Shown here: in pieces, positions 31,045 to 44,374 of the stretch
How positions within the stretch are numbered: position 1 is the stretch's first letter
Layout: each line of letters starts with the position of its first letter
Origin: Gammaproteobacteria bacterium
Lineage (GTDB): Bacteria; Pseudomonadota; Gammaproteobacteria; Steroidobacterales; Steroidobacteraceae
Direction of reading: 5' to 3'
Assembly: GCA_027459765.1 (NCBI GenBank)
Contig: DAIDHD010000011.1
Span: 1-64,000, forward strand
DNA length: 64,000 bases
Notes under the pieces: model-generated
The model's database searches: none
What the model was told of the DNA's origin: nothing
What the model saw: the letters and a program-made list of their open reading frames with translations, nothing else
Program-made: the position numbers and the translations under genes

Positions 31045-32340
31045 TTATTTTTTGCTGTCGCCGCTCCCGGGATCGACCACGAGGCCGAACCCATAGATGG
31101 TGTCGCGTCCCGGCCGCCCGAGGTCGATGGCACCCGCGGCGAGCGCAACGATCGCGGATTGCGCTGCTTGCGGGTCGGGACTCGACAGGAGCGCGGCCAG
31201 GCGGGCTGCAACCGCGGGTGCAGCGAACGAGGTGCCGCGCACTTCGACGCGAGCGCCGTGCAGTCCGGCGGCGGTGATGTTCGCGCCAGCCGCCGCGAAC
31301 GTGACCTGCAGCCCTTGGACCGCCTCCACGAGCACGTGCCGACGCGCGTCCACGCCGGTGACGCCGACCACGCCCGGATAGGCGGCGGGATACAACGGCG
31401 GCGATGCCGGGCCGTCGTTGCCCACGGCCGCCACCAGCAGATGACCGCGTGCGACGAGCGCGGCGACCACGCGCTCCAGAATCCCGTTCGCGGGTCCGAC
31501 CAGGCTCAGGTTCACGACGGCGACGTGCTGCCGCGCCAGCCATTCGAGCGCGCTCACGATTGCGTCCACGGCGCCCCCGGTCGGCCTGCCGCAGTACACG
31601 TCGGCCGCATAGAGGTCACGCGCGCCGTGTTCGACCAGCAGCGAGGCCACCGCGGTGCCGTGCGAGGCGGCCACGCTCGCGCCGTCGCACCCCCACGGAT
31701 GCACGGCGGCCGAGGCGAACGCTGGATGGGTGCTCTCGAGTCCGGTGTCGACGAGGCCCACGCGGACCGTAGCCGTGCCGGGCGGCACGGGTTCAGGCGG
31801 GGCGGGCGGCGCGGCGCCGGCCGATGCGACGCCACTGCCGAGGTAGACGTGATCGAACTCGTACAGGCCCTCGGGGTCGAGCTTGCGCGCCTCGTCCAGT
31901 GCCGCACGCGTCGACAACCGCTCCGGTACGCGCAGTGTCACGACCCGCACGCCGAGTTGGTCGCCCGGCTCGTCCCGCACGACTTCGAACCCGCGCGCGG
32001 CGAGCGCGGCGAGTGCGGCCGGGGTCGGCGCCAGGGCGAGCAATCGGGAGCGCAGCACGGGATTTCCCGCCCGGTCACGGTCGAGTTCGCGCGGGTGCTC
32101 GCGCAACAGGCGGCGCACGAGCTCGGCACGCGCCTCGGTGAGGCCATCTTGGGTCAGGGTCTGCAGGCTCTGCAGGTCGCGCGCCGCGCTCGGCAGTGCC
32201 GGCAAGCCGAGCGGCACGCCCGGCAGACGAACCTGCGCCACCGCGCCCGTCGAGAACACGGTGCAGAGCGCGAAGGCCGCGCAGCGCAGGAGTCTCCTGC
32301 GGCGTAATCGGGTCGTGGCGTGCATCGGGCTGGCGCGCAT
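31045..32340 (-). CDS. Secreted S8 (subtilisin-family) serine peptidase next to an ECF sigma factor
   Basis: A 431-aa protein with a signal peptide (after an Arg-rich start, LLRCAAFALCTVFSTGAVAQ), a pro-domain-like region (about 70-165) and an S8 catalytic domain. Catalytic Asp198 (GLVDTGLE), His227 (ASHGTAVA), oxyanion Asn308 (VGNDG) and Ser371 (RGTSFAAP) are all present, so it should be active. It is divergent from the ECF sigma and anti-sigma pair, with 82 bp between starts, and shares this arrangement in part with the second cluster at 41.8-44.4 kb. AGGAG lies a few bases before ATG 32340; a second ATG five codons later is possible. Confidence 0.9.
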   Translation of the reverse strand: MRASPMHATTRLRRRRLLRCAAFALCTVFSTGAVAQVRLPGVPLGLPALPSAARDLQSLQTLTQDGLTEARAELVRRLLREHPRELDRDRAGNPVLRSRLLALAPTPAALAALAARGFEVVRDEPGDQLGVRVVTLRVPERLSTRAALDEARKLDPEGLYEFDHVYLGSGVASAGAAPPAPPEPVPPGTATVRVGLVDTGLESTHPAFASAAVHPWGCDGASVAASHGTAVASLLVEHGARDLYAADVYCGRPTGGAVDAIVSALEWLARQHVAVVNLSLVGPANGILERVVAALVARGHLLVAAVGNDGPASPPLYPAAYPGVVGVTGVDARRHVLVEAVQGLQVTFAAAGANITAAGLHGARVEVRGTSFAAPAVAARLAALLSSPDPQAAQSAIVALAAGAIDLGRPGRDTIYGFGLVVDPGSGDSKK

Positions 32341-39520: not shown

Positions 39521-39718
39521 GGCGGCTCCGATGGATGAACGTGGCGGGAGGGCGTCCCGCGGGCGCCCGTCAAGTCTACGCAACGGCGTCGGAGGCCACC
39601 AGGAGGACGCGCGCACCGCGCGCGCTGCCCGACTCGAGGTTCCCGGGGACTCGATTGAACCGCGGCGCTCCACGGCGGCACTCACCGGCAGTGCTCGCAA
39701 CCTTCATCGGAGATCGGC

Positions 39719-40906
39719 ATGCGTCAACAGACTGCTCGCGCGGTGGTGGCTTTGTTCGGATCCTTCGGCCTGTGCGCCTGCGGAGGCGGCATGGGCGGCT
39801 ACGGCGGCTCTTCCATGGGGATGACCATGACCACGCCGCCGACCAGCGCGAATTACTCGCGTACGGAACTGGTGGCGAACGTCGCCGGCGGAACCGCCAC
39901 CACCGTGGATCCGCAACTCGAGAATCCCTGGGGGCTGGTGATCGCGCCCGGTGCGCCGGCGTGGTTGGCCAACAATGGCACGCAGACCTCCACTCTCTAT
40001 GACGGTCTCGGTCACCCGCAGCCGCAGGCAGGGGCGGGTGAACTGGTCGTGACCCTGCCTCCCGGGACGGGCGGCGTGGCCTTCGATCCAACCGGGATGG
40101 TGTTCAACGCGGGTGCGTCGGATTTCGTGATCTCGGCCGCCGGCAAGTCGGGGCCTGCGAGCTTCATCTACGCCGGTGAGTCCGGTGCGATCGCCGGCTG
40201 GTCCTCCTCGGTATCGCCGACGGCCGCGGTGACGGCCTACGCGGACACGCAGGGTGCCGTGTACAAGGGCCTTGCGCTCGCCACCTATCAGGGCAAGGCG
40301 TATCTCTACGCCACCGACTTCCACAATGCCAAGGTCGACGTCTTCGATTCGACCTTCACCAAACAGCCCGTATCTTCCTCGAGCTTCACGTTCCAGGACC
40401 CCGGCATTCCGGCGGGATATGCGCCGTTCGGCATTCAGGCGTTGCCGACGGGCAGTGCGGGCGCCGTGCAGATCTACGTGACCTACGCGCAGCAGGCGGC
40501 GCCGCAGAACCACGACCAGGTCAGTGGCGCAGGACTCGGCTTCGTCGACGTCTACGACACCAACGGCCAGCTCATCAAGCAGTTGGTGGCGAATGGTGTG
40601 TTGAATGCGCCCTGGGGTCTCGCGCTCGCACCCGCCGACTTCGGTGCGCTCAGCGGCGCCCTGTTGGTGGGCAACTTCGGTGACGGCACCATCAACGCCT
40701 TCGACGCGGCCTCGGGCGCCATGATCGGCACGGTGCGCGACGCCTCCGGCAATGCGTTCCAGATCAGCGGACTGTGGGGGCTCGCGTTCGGCAATGATGC
40801 ACTCAGCCAGCCGCACAACACGCTCTTCTACACCGCCGGACCGAATCAGGAGATGGGCGGGCTCTACGGGCGGATCGACGTGGGCACGACCCCGTCGGGC
40901 TATTAG
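39719..40906 (+). CDS. TIGR03118-type (PEP-CTERM-associated) secreted lipoprotein
   Basis: A 395-aa protein with a lipoprotein-like signal (LFGSFGLCACGGG), a Gly/Met/Thr-rich linker, then a beta-propeller-like domain with repeated NPWGLVIAP, GVAFDPTGMVF, APFGIQALP, LNAPWGLALAP and ISGLWGLAFG elements. This pattern matches the family I know as TIGR03118, originally defined among PEP-CTERM-associated proteins. The C-terminus ends in a plain sequence with no sorting signal, so it is not itself an exosortase substrate. Function unknown; an extracellular binding protein is likely. Confidence 0.82.
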   Translation: MRQQTARAVVALFGSFGLCACGGGMGGYGGSSMGMTMTTPPTSANYSRTELVANVAGGTATTVDPQLENPWGLVIAPGAPAWLANNGTQTSTLYDGLGHPQPQAGAGELVVTLPPGTGGVAFDPTGMVFNAGASDFVISAAGKSGPASFIYAGESGAIAGWSSSVSPTAAVTAYADTQGAVYKGLALATYQGKAYLYATDFHNAKVDVFDSTFTKQPVSSSSFTFQDPGIPAGYAPFGIQALPTGSAGAVQIYVTYAQQAAPQNHDQVSGAGLGFVDVYDTNGQLIKQLVANGVLNAPWGLALAPADFGALSGALLVGNFGDGTINAFDAASGAMIGTVRDASGNAFQISGLWGLAFGNDALSQPHNTLFYTAGPNQEMGGLYGRIDVGTTPSGY

Positions 40907-41023: not shown

Positions 41024-41776
41024 GTGTCAGTGAACCTCGCCATCGCCCGCCTTGCCGCGACCGCCGCTGCCGTTGCCTCCGCGTGGCTGGCGATCGCGCC
41101 CGCGCGCGCGCTCGATTCCGGCGGCTTCGTCGCGCTCGAATCGGACGATCTGTATCACGGCCTGTCGCAGGTGCGCGGCCAACCCACCGCGGTAGTGGAC
41201 GCCTACGCGCGGGTGCGCGACGACGCCTACGTGGGCGGCAGCGTCGAGCGGGTCGATCTGCCGGGCGCCGGCAACGCCGCGGCCGGTGCGATCTATGTCG
41301 GCGCCGCTCGTGCCCTGAATGACGACTGGTCGCTCGGGGGGGCGGTGTCGCGTTACGTGTACTCGCGTGAGCCCGCCGATCTGTCCTACGACTTCACGGA
41401 GTTGCAGGCACACGTGCGCTGGCGCTCGCGGCTACGGCTCGACGCGTACTTCTCGCCGGACACCTCGATCTATTCGGCCCGCGGGGCGCTGCGCAACGGG
41501 CAATCCGGCGGCGTCGAGGTCGCCTGGCGGCAGGAGCTGGCGCGCGGCTTCGCGCTCGACGGCGGAGCCGGCTTCCGACGGCTCGGCGGAGCGATCGACT
41601 CCGGCTACGCCTACGGGGATCTCGGTTTGGCGTGGCGCATGGCGAACTGGCAGCTCAGCGTGCAAGCGGTCGCGGTGGATGGCAGGGCGAAGAGCCTGTT
41701 CGGCCGCCAAACCGCCGCTGATCGCTGGGTGTTCGGCCTGATTCGCCAATTCGGCGCCGGTTCCGCGGTGCATTGA
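41024..41776 (+). CDS. Outer-membrane beta-barrel protein, TorF/Gcw_chp-like
   Basis: A 250-aa protein with a signal peptide (cleavage near ARALDSGG) followed by alternating amphipathic strands such as GGFVALESDDLYHGLSQVRG, AYVGGSVERVDL and LRLDAYFSPDTSIY. The early strand DLYHGLSQ plus the final aromatic-rich strands resemble the TIGR02001/TorF putative porin family. Probably an outer-membrane barrel of about ten strands; substrate unknown. It precedes the second ECF sigma gene by 65 bp and may belong to its regulon. GTG 41024 is used; GTG 41030 is an alternative. Confidence 0.75.
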   Translation: MSVNLAIARLAATAAAVASAWLAIAPARALDSGGFVALESDDLYHGLSQVRGQPTAVVDAYARVRDDAYVGGSVERVDLPGAGNAAAGAIYVGAARALNDDWSLGGAVSRYVYSREPADLSYDFTELQAHVRWRSRLRLDAYFSPDTSIYSARGALRNGQSGGVEVAWRQELARGFALDGGAGFRRLGGAIDSGYAYGDLGLAWRMANWQLSVQAVAVDGRAKSLFGRQTAADRWVFGLIRQFGAGSAVH

Positions 41777-41841
41777 ACCAAACCCGCGCGCCGAGGGCAC
41801 TCAAAGGGGAAGGCGGGGTTCGTCGCAGGGGGCGGTGGTCG

Positions 41842-42435
41842 TTGAAGTTTACGCAGAACACGGCTGAGACAGCGGAATCGGACGCGCTGCTGCTGCAGCG
41901 AATCGCCGCCAGGGATCGTGTCGCCTTTCGACGGCTCTACGATCGCTATCGCCGGACGCTGATGTTGTTCCTGCGCCGATTCAACCACCGCACGGATCTG
42001 CTCGACGAGATCGTCAACGACACCATGTACGTGGTGTGGTGCAAGGCCGAGCGCTTTCGCGGTGAATCGCAACCCTCGACCTGGATTCACGGCATTGCCT
42101 ACCGTCAGGCCATGAAGCGACTGCAGCGCCGCGACGCCCGGCTCGACGCGGCCGCCGACGTCGAAGCGGTGGTCGAGTCGGGCGAGGTGCACGCCGAACG
42201 CAGCGACTGGGTGCAGGCCGCCCTCGAGGAACTGCCCTACGAGCAGCGCGCCGTGCTGGAGTTGACCTACTTCCACGGGCACTCCTGCCAGGAGATTGCC
42301 GACCTGATGGGCTGCCCCGTCAACACGGTGAAGACCCGGATGTTTCATGCACGCCTCAAACTGCGACAGCGGTTGCCGCGCCTGGCCGAGGCGGCGATTT
42401 GCACCAGCGGCGCGGAGGGTGCGGAGGTTTCATGA
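41842..42435 (+). CDS. ECF RNA polymerase sigma factor (cluster 2)
   Basis: A 197-aa ECF sigma factor. Region 2 is VAFRRLYDRYRRTLMLFLRRF and DLLDEIVNDTMYVVW, and region 2.4 is STWIHGIAYRQAMKRLQRR. Region 4 is YEQRAVLELTYFHGHSCQEIADLM with the recognition helix CPVNTVKTRMFHARLKLR. It differs clearly from the cluster 1 sigma factor, so the two clusters are not recent duplicates. The start codon is uncertain: TTG 41842 is taken, and a TTG overlapping the previous stop (41773) would add 23 residues. It overlaps the anti-sigma gene (ATGA). Confidence 0.9.
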   Translation: MKFTQNTAETAESDALLLQRIAARDRVAFRRLYDRYRRTLMLFLRRFNHRTDLLDEIVNDTMYVVWCKAERFRGESQPSTWIHGIAYRQAMKRLQRRDARLDAAADVEAVVESGEVHAERSDWVQAALEELPYEQRAVLELTYFHGHSCQEIADLMGCPVNTVKTRMFHARLKLRQRLPRLAEAAICTSGAEGAEVS

Positions 42436-43073
42436 ACGACGCCGACATCGATCCCCACGTACGGACGCTGGAGGGACTTCCCTGGTACGTCACCGGCCGT
42501 CTGGAAGCGGCCGAGGCGACGCAGATCCGCGCGCACCTCGAGCATTGCGCGCCGTGCCGCCTGGAATTGGAGCGTGAAGTGGCACTGCAGGCACTGGTGT
42601 CGAGCCGTGCGCAGTCGGTAGACGCCGCAGCGGCGTCATTCGCGCGTCTCGAGGGCCGGATTCGCGGCGCCGGCGCCGCGTCCGCGGACGGTCCCGGGCA
42701 GCGGGTCGCGGCAGCGACGCACTCGCGAGCCTGGCTGCGCGTGGCGGCTGCCGTGGCCGGCGCCGCCGTGATCGGCGGCCTGCTCGAATACGCCTGGGTG
42801 GTGCCGCACTACCGCTCCGCCACCTCCGCGGCGCAGCCCGCGCCGAGCGGCACGCGGTTGCGGCTGGTGCTCGCCCCGGACGCCTCCGTCGGTGAATGGG
42901 CGGCCTGGTTGAGCGCCGAGGGGGCGCAGGTGGTCGCGGGGCCGAGCGCGAGCGGCGCCTGGACCGTGTCCCTGCCGACTCGCTTGAACCCGAGCGCGCT
43001 CAAGGACCGGCTCGCCCGCTGGCGCTCGCGACCCGGCATCGAACTCGTCGAGCCCGTCGGCGACCTGCCGTGA
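42432..43073 (+). CDS. Zinc-finger anti-sigma factor with a pro-domain-like periplasmic region (cluster 2)
   Basis: A 213-aa protein. The N-terminal zinc-binding anti-sigma domain has the HX3CX2C motif at His35, Cys39 and Cys42. A membrane segment lies at about residues 101-120. The periplasmic part (140-213) ends [16 protein letters not shown] and reads like a compact ferredoxin-like domain. Its last 60 residues resemble the S8 pro-domain of the peptidase encoded next ([16 protein letters not shown]). It should sequester the upstream ECF factor. The periplasmic domain could be cut or bound by the S8 peptidase; that is inference. Confidence 0.88.
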   Translation: MNDADIDPHVRTLEGLPWYVTGRLEAAEATQIRAHLEHCAPCRLELEREVALQALVSSRAQSVDAAAASFARLEGRIRGAGAASADGPGQRVAAATHSRAWLRVAAAVAGAAVIGGLLEYAWVVPHYRSATSAAQPAPSGTRLRLVLAPDASVGEWAAWLSAEGAQVVAGPSASGAWTVSLPTRLNPSALKDRLARWRSRPGIELVEPVGDLP

Positions 43074-44374
43074 GACGGGTGGTCCTCGTGCTCGCACTCG
43101 CAGCGTCGGCGCAGTTGGCCGGTTGCGCCGTCGTGCGGCCGCCGAGTGCGCGGCTGCCGAGCACGATGCCGGCACGCATGCTGCCGGCAAGCCCGGCGCG
43201 GGATTCCGCCGAGGGATTCCTGGTGGTCACGCTCGAGCGCGCGCCGCAGGCGCTCGAGCCCGCGCCCGGCTCGACGCCGCGCGGCGACGCCGCGATCGGC
43301 GAGTATGGCGCGAGTTCGCGCAACCGGCGCGTCATCTCGGGGCTGAGCCGCGACTATGGTCTGCGCCCGGTGGCGGCGTGGCCGATCGAACCGATCCACG
43401 TGGACTGCGTGGTGTTCGCGACCGCCGCCGGCGATGCCGGTTCGTTGATCGAGCGGCTTCGGCACGACCCGCGAGTGCGCCTGGTCGAGCCGCTCGCCGA
43501 GTTTCACACCTCGAGCGAGGCTCCCGCGAACTCGCCGACCTCGTATCGTCGCCTGCAGCACAATCTCGACGAACTCGGCCTTCCGGCTGTGGCTCCGTCG
43601 GCGACGGGTGCCGGCATCCGGGTGGCGGTGATCGACACCGGCGTGAGCCTGGATCACCCGGACCTGCACGGCGCCGTGGTCGCGCATCAGGATCTGGTGG
43701 GGGAGGGAGAGGATGCCTTCCGCACCGATCTGCACGGCACCGAGGTGGCCGGCGTGATCGGCGCGCGCGCCCTGGATGCGACCGCAGTCGCCGGCGTTGC
43801 GCCGCGCTCTCAACTGGTGGCACTGAAGGCCTGCTGGCAGCGCGCGGGCGAAGCGCACGCCGTGTGCAACACCTTCAGTCTCGCCAAGGCGATCGTCGCC
43901 GCGGTGGACCAGCACGCGCGGATCATCAACCTGAGCCTGACGGGGCCGGCCGACCCGCTGCTCGCCGAGCTGCTCGGCTGGGTGCAGGCGCGCGGCATCG
44001 TCGTGGTCGGTCCCGTGGCCAGCGACGGCACGCGTGACGGCTTCCCGGCCGGCGTGGCCGGCGTCATCGCGGTGGATCGTAGCGAAGGGTCCCAGCGGCG
44101 TCCCGACGTGGTCTACGCGCCCGGCGACGACATCCTCACGCTGACGCCCGGCGGGCACTACGACTTCGCGTCCGGCAGCTCGCTCGCGGCCGCCGAGGTG
44201 AGCGGCGTCGCCGCGCTGCTGCTCGAGCGCGGTGCCCGGGATCGGCGCGGCGTGCAGGCGGCTCTGCGAGCGGCCGAGGCCGGCGGCGGCGTGCGCTCGA
44301 TCGCGCTGGCGCGCGACGCCCTGCGGTTCCTGGATTCGCGCGCGGGGCGGATCGAACTCGGCGCGATCCGCTGA
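43070..44374 (+). CDS. S8 peptidase lipoprotein with altered oxyanion site (cluster 2)
   Basis: A 434-aa protein with a lipoprotein signal (LAGC, Cys19), a pro-domain-like region (about 85-145) and an S8 domain. Catalytic Asp189 ([12 protein letters not shown]), His222 (DLHGTEVAG) and Ser371 are present, but the usual GTSMAAP is GSSLAAA and the oxyanion-hole Asn is Ser318 (VASDG). Activity may be reduced or specialised. It is anchored to a membrane and its GTG overlaps the anti-sigma stop, so sigma, anti-sigma and peptidase form one coupled operon. Confidence 0.88.

Follow-up and report, generated by a model that had tools for sequence, protein, structure and literature searches.

A conserved sigma/anti-sigma/S8 peptidase module whose anti-sigma factor carries a homologue of S8 propeptides, a candidate envelope switch

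Here, we describe a gene module in a 64,000-nucleotide stretch of a Steroidobacteraceae genome (Gammaproteobacteria; assembly GCA_027459765.1, contig DAIDHD010000011.1, positions 1 to 64,000; hereafter the window), in which an extracytoplasmic function (ECF) sigma factor, a membrane anti-sigma factor and a peptidase of family S8 are encoded one after another. The C-terminal domain (C-domain) of the anti-sigma factor is homologous to the propeptides of S8 peptidases, and the ECF sigma/anti-sigma/S8 module is conserved in Pseudomonadota and a few Acidobacteriota bins. We consider the chances slightly better than even that the module acts as a self-contained, autoregulated envelope switch, in which the peptidase engages the propeptide-like domain of the anti-sigma factor and so frees the sigma factor. 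Many anti-sigma ectodomains are without a known ligand; a propeptide-homologue ectodomain with a matching protease encoded next door allows receptor and ligand to be named from sequence and makes the pairing directly testable. If true, ECF signalling would gain a new input in the form of protease recognition through a propeptide homologue, present in several proteobacterial classes as well as some Acidobacteriota bins. A candidate promoter and candidate cargo accompany the module.

The anti-sigma factor combines a zf-HC2 domain, a single hydrophobic segment at about residues 100-124 and a C-domain of about 75 residues that is probably periplasmic. The zf-HC2 match (Table 1) bears out an earlier note on this DNA, which had called the protein a zinc-finger anti-sigma factor; with its hydrophobic segment and the adjoining ECF gene, it fits the class I (zf-HC2) membrane anti-sigma factors. 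zf-HC2 was present in 18 of the 23 members of A1, an alignment of anti-sigma relatives drawn from 23 of 29 loci. Two anti-sigma-like proteins (L018 and L026) lack the zf-HC2 cysteines, yet have a propeptide-like C-domain and an S8 neighbour.

The earlier note had also seen a likeness between the C-terminal end of the anti-sigma factor and the pro-region of the S8 protein. Both stretches are present, and profile comparison places their likeness above chance: aligned with hhalign, 142 anti-sigma C-domains (A5; 149 open reading frames (ORFs) with the domain, minus six from L200, L201, L215 and L219 and minus L022, which has masked bases) matched 22 S8 pro-regions (A4) over 58 columns with a score of 38.5 (P 4.4e-7, probability 92.6%). 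Eight single controls, namely six segments of the S8 alignment outside the pro-region, the anti-sigma N-terminus and the reversed A4, scored 8.8 to 22.2 (P 8.3e-4 for the top one), and 60 column-shuffled A4 profiles scored at most 14.3. Furthermore, among 275 register shifts along the S8 protein, the mean BLOSUM value was positive only at the pro-region register, which hhalign had picked beforehand (+0.20; runner-up -0.43). The predicted folds agree as well, since AlphaFold gives the strand/helix order b-a-b-b-a-b for both the anti-sigma C-domain (E12-17 H23-32 E36-39 E46-50 H57-68 E73-78; pLDDT 87.5, pTM 0.74) and the S8 pro-region (E49-56 H83-96 E99-106 E111-118 H123-131 E136-141; pLDDT of the whole model 83.9), the latter having an insert that separates strand 1 from helix 1. 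Because b-a-b-b-a-b is a common arrangement, fold searches by themselves are not decisive.

A link to S8 pro-domains also emerges from Pfam. At E<=1, 69 of the 142 anti-sigma C-domains matched the Fervidolysin_NPro-like family (PF22148), with a best value of 5.9e-9, and only six matched the runner-up family. When ten anti-sigma domains were compared singly with PF22148, three exceeded the cut-off of 21 bits (L172, 33.3; L153, 27.7; L185, 27.5), two others matched under it and five were unmatched. On the peptidase side, weak matches were found in 4 of the 22 S8 pro-regions (best E 0.004); among ten other S8 partners, the L217 pro-region passed the cut-off (24.1), L204 and L093 fell under it and seven had no match. 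The I9-like pro-domain postulated in the earlier note is thus propeptide-like as supposed, with Fervidolysin_NPro-like as its family; Inhibitor I9 (PF05922) is absent from the best 25 of the 51 families listed for the 142 domains. We speak of a homologue of propeptides rather than of a propeptide because, unlike the S8 propeptides of PF22148 and I9, the domain is encoded by a separate gene, C-terminal in an anti-sigma factor and in trans to the peptidase instead of N-terminal to the S8 domain.

Relatives of the anti-sigma factor occur in 25 of 147 genomes of the order, its own included, and, at a loose threshold at which many were matched by the N-terminal part alone, in 70 of 369 genomes of the class. 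When 349 genomes of the phylum were scanned with only the C-domain profile, 31 genomes, again including its own, gave 34 matches, of which 30 were taken as loci (second matches in G466, G717 and G813 were left out, as was G561). The domain is encoded at all 30 loci; a sigma gene lies nearby at 28 of them and an S8 gene at 27, so the module suggested in the earlier note is real and conserved. The higher figure of 132/149 includes S8-profile searches and is biased, the C-domain-only phylum scan being the unbiased measure. From the opposite direction, an S8-profile search yielded 519 confirmed candidates, and among the best 80, from named genomes, 75 have a C-domain nearby, three an anti-sigma factor with a divergent domain (a likeness judged by eye) and two lie at contig ends; an anti-sigma gene is therefore found near 78 of the 80. 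The genomes of these 80 include Nevskia, Dokdonella, Luteibacter, Dyella, Rhodanobacter, Paraburkholderia, Nitrosomonas, Massilia, Duganella, Janthinobacterium, Sphingomonas, Novosphingobium, Phenylobacterium, Gluconacetobacter and four Acidobacteriota bins, among others. The genes usually run sigma, anti-sigma, S8 on one strand, with exceptions in which the S8 gene lies upstream (L216, L217) or on the opposite strand (L106, L123, L218).

How such a switch might work can be outlined as follows. The zf-HC2 domain of the anti-sigma factor would hold the ECF sigma factor, and a membrane-tethered S8-propeptide homologue would be shown on the periplasmic side. The co-encoded peptidase would recognise this tethered domain much like its own pro-region, and engagement could consist of cleavage of the anti-sigma ectodomain or of displacement of the peptidase's own pro-region. 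Either would start the destruction of the anti-sigma factor and free the sigma factor, which would then transcribe its own operon together with envelope cargo (TIGR03118 proteins and, in some lineages, PEP-CTERM proteins). We computed the homology of the domain and the conservation of the module and of its promoter-like site; the topology, binding, cleavage, signal, regulon and direction of control we infer.

The character of the S8 partner constrains what engagement could mean. The window protein has a PF00082 domain and a LAGC lipobox at Cys19, in line with the S8 lipoprotein predicted in the earlier note; the lipobox pattern occurs in just 37 of 105 S8 proteins of its group, so not all S8 partners are lipoproteins. 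This group is defined by the oxyanion-hole asparagine: by text pattern, 27 of 132 S8 partners have the AAGN motif and 105 are without it ('Asn-less'), the latter including truncated or misfit entries (L022, L036, L049, L146, L209 and L218). A 130-row tree places 99 of the 100 Asn-less rows, the window S8 among them, in one clade (support 0.74), and the asparagine is absent from the window protein and from all 22 rows of A2, the S8 alignment. The clade keeps the catalytic triad (Asp in 104/104, His in 104/104 and Ser in 100/100 aligned rows) and has, in window numbering, Trp104, Cys113, Cys255, Trp256 and Cys266 in 100-102 of the 102-104 rows; a CW motif occurs in 98 of the 105 Asn-less proteins vs none of the 27 in the AAGN group. 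Loss of the oxyanion asparagine greatly slows subtilisin, and Asn-less enzymes may for this reason be slow, gated or single-turnover. Simple cleavage of the anti-sigma factor is accordingly not to be assumed for the window peptidase. Such a subtilase clade, which retains its triad and dispenses with the oxyanion asparagine, offers a natural case of how minimal the catalysis needed by a regulatory protease might be.

These features also bear on a model in which the S8 protein, with little or no enzymatic activity left, only binds the anti-sigma factor, as lysozyme binds RsiV, with another site-1 protease making the cut. The loss of the asparagine within one clade that has its own near-invariant Cys and Trp residues would fit, as would the RsiV precedent (PMC4183432), but a pure ligand would not need the complete triad, whose retention speaks against mere decoys, and other S8 partners have an intact AAGN motif; we rate this model as rather unlikely. 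Somewhat better placed, though still doubtful, is a signalling role for the propeptide principle, in which the tethered domain, as a 'trans-propeptide', would compete with the Cys-bearing pro-region of the S8 protein for an Asn-less one-shot or non-turnover sensor protease, so that the winner sets the state of the sigma factor and caspases can replace the S8 protein.

Caspase-like genes indeed occupy the S8 position at some loci. The three loci of the phylum scan that have no S8 gene nearby each carry one, adjoining in G738 and about 1.5 kb away in G813 and G717, at which two loci a sigma gene was not recognised. A caspase-like gene directly follows the anti-sigma gene in G393 and G738 (both Pfam C14) and in G912 (E 2.7e-56), and a further scan of one order gave 14 C-domain loci with S8, two with a caspase-like gene and three with neither (L033 excluded). 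Replacement of one peptidase by another is expected if the peptidase acts on the anti-sigma factor, and a caspase standing where S8 is otherwise found speaks more for proteolysis than for inhibition. It thereby bears on the idea of a tethered inhibitor or feedback sensor, in which the anti-sigma domain would capture free mature S8 peptidase, protecting the anti-sigma factor or inactivating the peptidase, so that a build-up of S8 turns the sigma factor off. Propeptides of S8 enzymes act as inhibitors, and their tail lies in the active site. The anti-sigma C-terminus extends a median of 7 residues past the EP column in the Asn-less group (n=104, range 2-18), roughly as long as such a tail and so of a length that would suit insertion into the S8 active site. 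The S8 gene usually comes last of the three same-strand genes that follow the promoter-like site, which would agree with feedback. However, the tail is shorter in the AAGN group (median 4, n=27), and caspase-like partners are not expected to be inhibited by such a domain, leaving this idea unlikely in our view.

Two points weigh against the likeness itself: the window's own C-domain matches no Pfam family at E<=1 and is tied to S8 propeptides solely through its family profile, and fold searches place S8 prodomains level with Lrp, FtsX and other domains. Beside the missing asparagine, several further points weigh against engagement of the anti-sigma factor by its peptidase. Having a pro-region of its own, the S8 protein can do without the anti-sigma domain for its folding; a propeptide-like inhibitor would be of no evident use to the caspase partners, and the domain may serve recognition or cleavage in a generic way. 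The window S8 protein, if located in the outer membrane, would be far from an anti-sigma factor in the inner membrane. Moreover, the matching of cognate pairs (z 3.8, with control registers reaching 3.4) is not above controls, and at eight C-domain loci (L017, L038, L039, L042, L057, L254, L256 and L262) neither an S8 nor a caspase-like gene was seen in the stretch examined, which counts against obligate partnership in cis; at four others (L013, L044, L046 and L052), cut by contig ends, the partner is undecidable. These last two points would also agree with a shared domain without direct contact, whereby an S8 gene was once the source of the anti-sigma domain and the S8 protein has since become just a regulon member, sequence homology being a sign of ancestry and not of contact. 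We regard this as improbable, in that the linkage is kept across several proteobacterial classes and some Acidobacteriota bins and the S8 gene is replaced by a peptidase of another clan.

Protease-triggered release of an ECF factor is already known in kind. The module shares an ECF sigma factor, a zf-HC2 membrane anti-sigma factor and apparent autoregulation with familiar ECF/anti-sigma systems, and adds to these a dedicated S8 (or caspase-like) gene and a propeptide-like ectodomain. A related logic is found in the Calp system of type III CRISPR (CalpL, CalpT), where a co-encoded protease acts on an anti-sigma factor and releases the sigma factor; CalpL differs in being a cytoplasmic Lon-type protease switched by cA4. 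CalpT is the anti-sigma factor cut by CalpL, and we know of no propeptide-like domain in that system. In Bacillus subtilis, the anti-sigma factor RsiV binds the enzyme lysozyme, which controls RsiV destruction; there the lysozyme is foreign and signal peptidase cuts (PMC4183432), whereas the candidate enzyme is here encoded next door. ECF54 loci have subtilase, CHAT (caspase-related) and carboxypeptidase neighbours, with proteolytic control proposed, and are described as being without an anti-sigma factor (PMC8999054); the window module, in contrast, has an adjoining anti-sigma gene as the likely target. No description of an ECF/anti-sigma/S8 module or of a propeptide-like anti-sigma factor appeared among the literature matches listed, which did not cover the ECF reclassification (doi 10.1093/nar/gkaa1229) that may list the group, and the consulted part of PMC7406223 does not mention such a module.

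The module is apparently autoregulated, as judged from a promoter-like site ahead of the sigma gene. In an interval from -60 to +80 around the counterpart of position 41773, TGAACC was found in 74 of 141 regions vs 4.65 in shuffles; with a suitably spaced -10-like element, whose pattern was composed after sites had been seen, the count was 53 of 141 vs a mean of 0.74 and a maximum of 3 in 50 shuffles. In the 3.34-Mb genome of the window, a strict version of the site matches five times (reversed pattern, three) and a looser version ten times (reversed pattern, nine); two matches of each version lie in the window. The second window site begins 64 bases 5' of a TIGR03118 gene, which may belong to a second transcription unit controlled by this sigma factor. 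In L123, an Acidobacteriota bin, the S8 gene lies apart from the sigma gene, and a separate copy of the site precedes its start by 70 bases.

As a lead for the regulon, the switch may serve envelope or surface proteins. Across the 80 named loci, 43 additional sites pass a loose test, and the genes behind 21 were inspected; none of the 43 lies upstream of TorF. TIGR03118 homologues occur near the module in 13 of the 80, three of them behind a site (L150, L156 and L166). PEP-CTERM proteins follow a site in L151 (2011-2700) and L169 (2695-3420), and another is encoded beside the module in plasmid L240 (1314-1967). A text pattern for the PEP-CTERM tail was found at 10 of the 80 loci vs 4 for reversed proteins, and an exosortase is among the proteins encoded by the window's genome (183 bits vs a cut-off of 105.55).

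Table 1. Positions of the module and its surroundings in the window
Feature	Position	Strand	Basis or remark
TorF-like putative porin	41024..41776	+	TIGR02001 E 1.7e-6, 27.8 bits, under curated cut-off 47.15
ECF-type promoter-like site TTGAACC-N-CACTCA, 5' of TIGR03118 gene	39655..39684	+	pattern match in the module's genome
TIGR03118 (PEPCTERM_chp_1) family protein, possible regulon member	39719..40906	+	NCBIfam E 2.3e-103
Conserved ECF-type promoter-like site of sigma gene (TTGAACC ... CACTCA)	41773..41803	+	overlaps TorF stop
ECF sigma factor	41842..42435 (TTG 41842 probable start; ORF opens 41773)	+	Pfam r2 and r4; TIGR02937 E 6.1e-25; site position
Anti-sigma factor	42432..43073	+	213 residues; zf-HC2 E 4.2e-7; hydropathy
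Propeptide-like C-domain of anti-sigma factor	42855..43055	+	b-a-b-b-a-b; profile comparisons, Pfam scans, AlphaFold
S8 peptidase, predicted lipoprotein	43070..44374	+	434 residues, start GTG; PF00082 E 4.3e-25; Asn-less clade
Pro-region of S8 protein	43214..43492	+	strand/helix order same as anti-sigma C-domain; Cys113 invariant in 22 rows of A2
Catalytic domain of S8 protein	43607..44230	+	Asp189, His222, Ser371; AAGN motif absent; Cys255 and Cys266

In the window, the sigma and anti-sigma genes, and likewise the anti-sigma and S8 genes, overlap by four bases, all on the same strand as the TorF-like gene, and the ORF downstream of the S8 gene was read by eye as uvrB. Two gene starts are corrected: the S8 gene begins at its overlap with the anti-sigma stop, and the sigma gene probably begins at TTG 41842 rather than at 41773, because the promoter-like site spans 41773-41803.

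Among the other alignments, A2, like A4, has 22 rows drawn from the same 29 loci as A1, and A3 (35 domains) is biased, having been partly selected for a GP motif. Caspase (C14)-like genes at five loci (L095 9081-10478, L213 6950-7807, L249 1952-2965, L214 3650-5401 and L215 3876-5525) adjoin C-domain ORFs or lie within about 1.5 kb of them, with no S8 gene seen there; the C14 assignment is Pfam-confirmed in L095 and L213, and L213 also has a CHAT-domain protein upstream. Three loci (L086, L087 and L090) have a sigma/anti-sigma pair with a propeptide-like domain and no S8 or caspase-like gene seen nearby, the L086 pair adjoining dapB- and carA-like genes. In L010, anti-sigma and S8 share one reading frame. 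A second layout, with an S8 protein bearing an IPT/TIG domain and the AAGN motif, occurs in L091 and L093, and L084, L092, L094 and L097 have similar ORF sizes; in L091, the S8 gene is preceded by genes for a protein with a weak beta-barrel match and for a protein of about 400 residues without a Pfam match. A second S8 peptidase is encoded in the window at 31084-31770 on the minus strand, its closest model being QhpE, under the cut-off (89.3 vs 165 bits).

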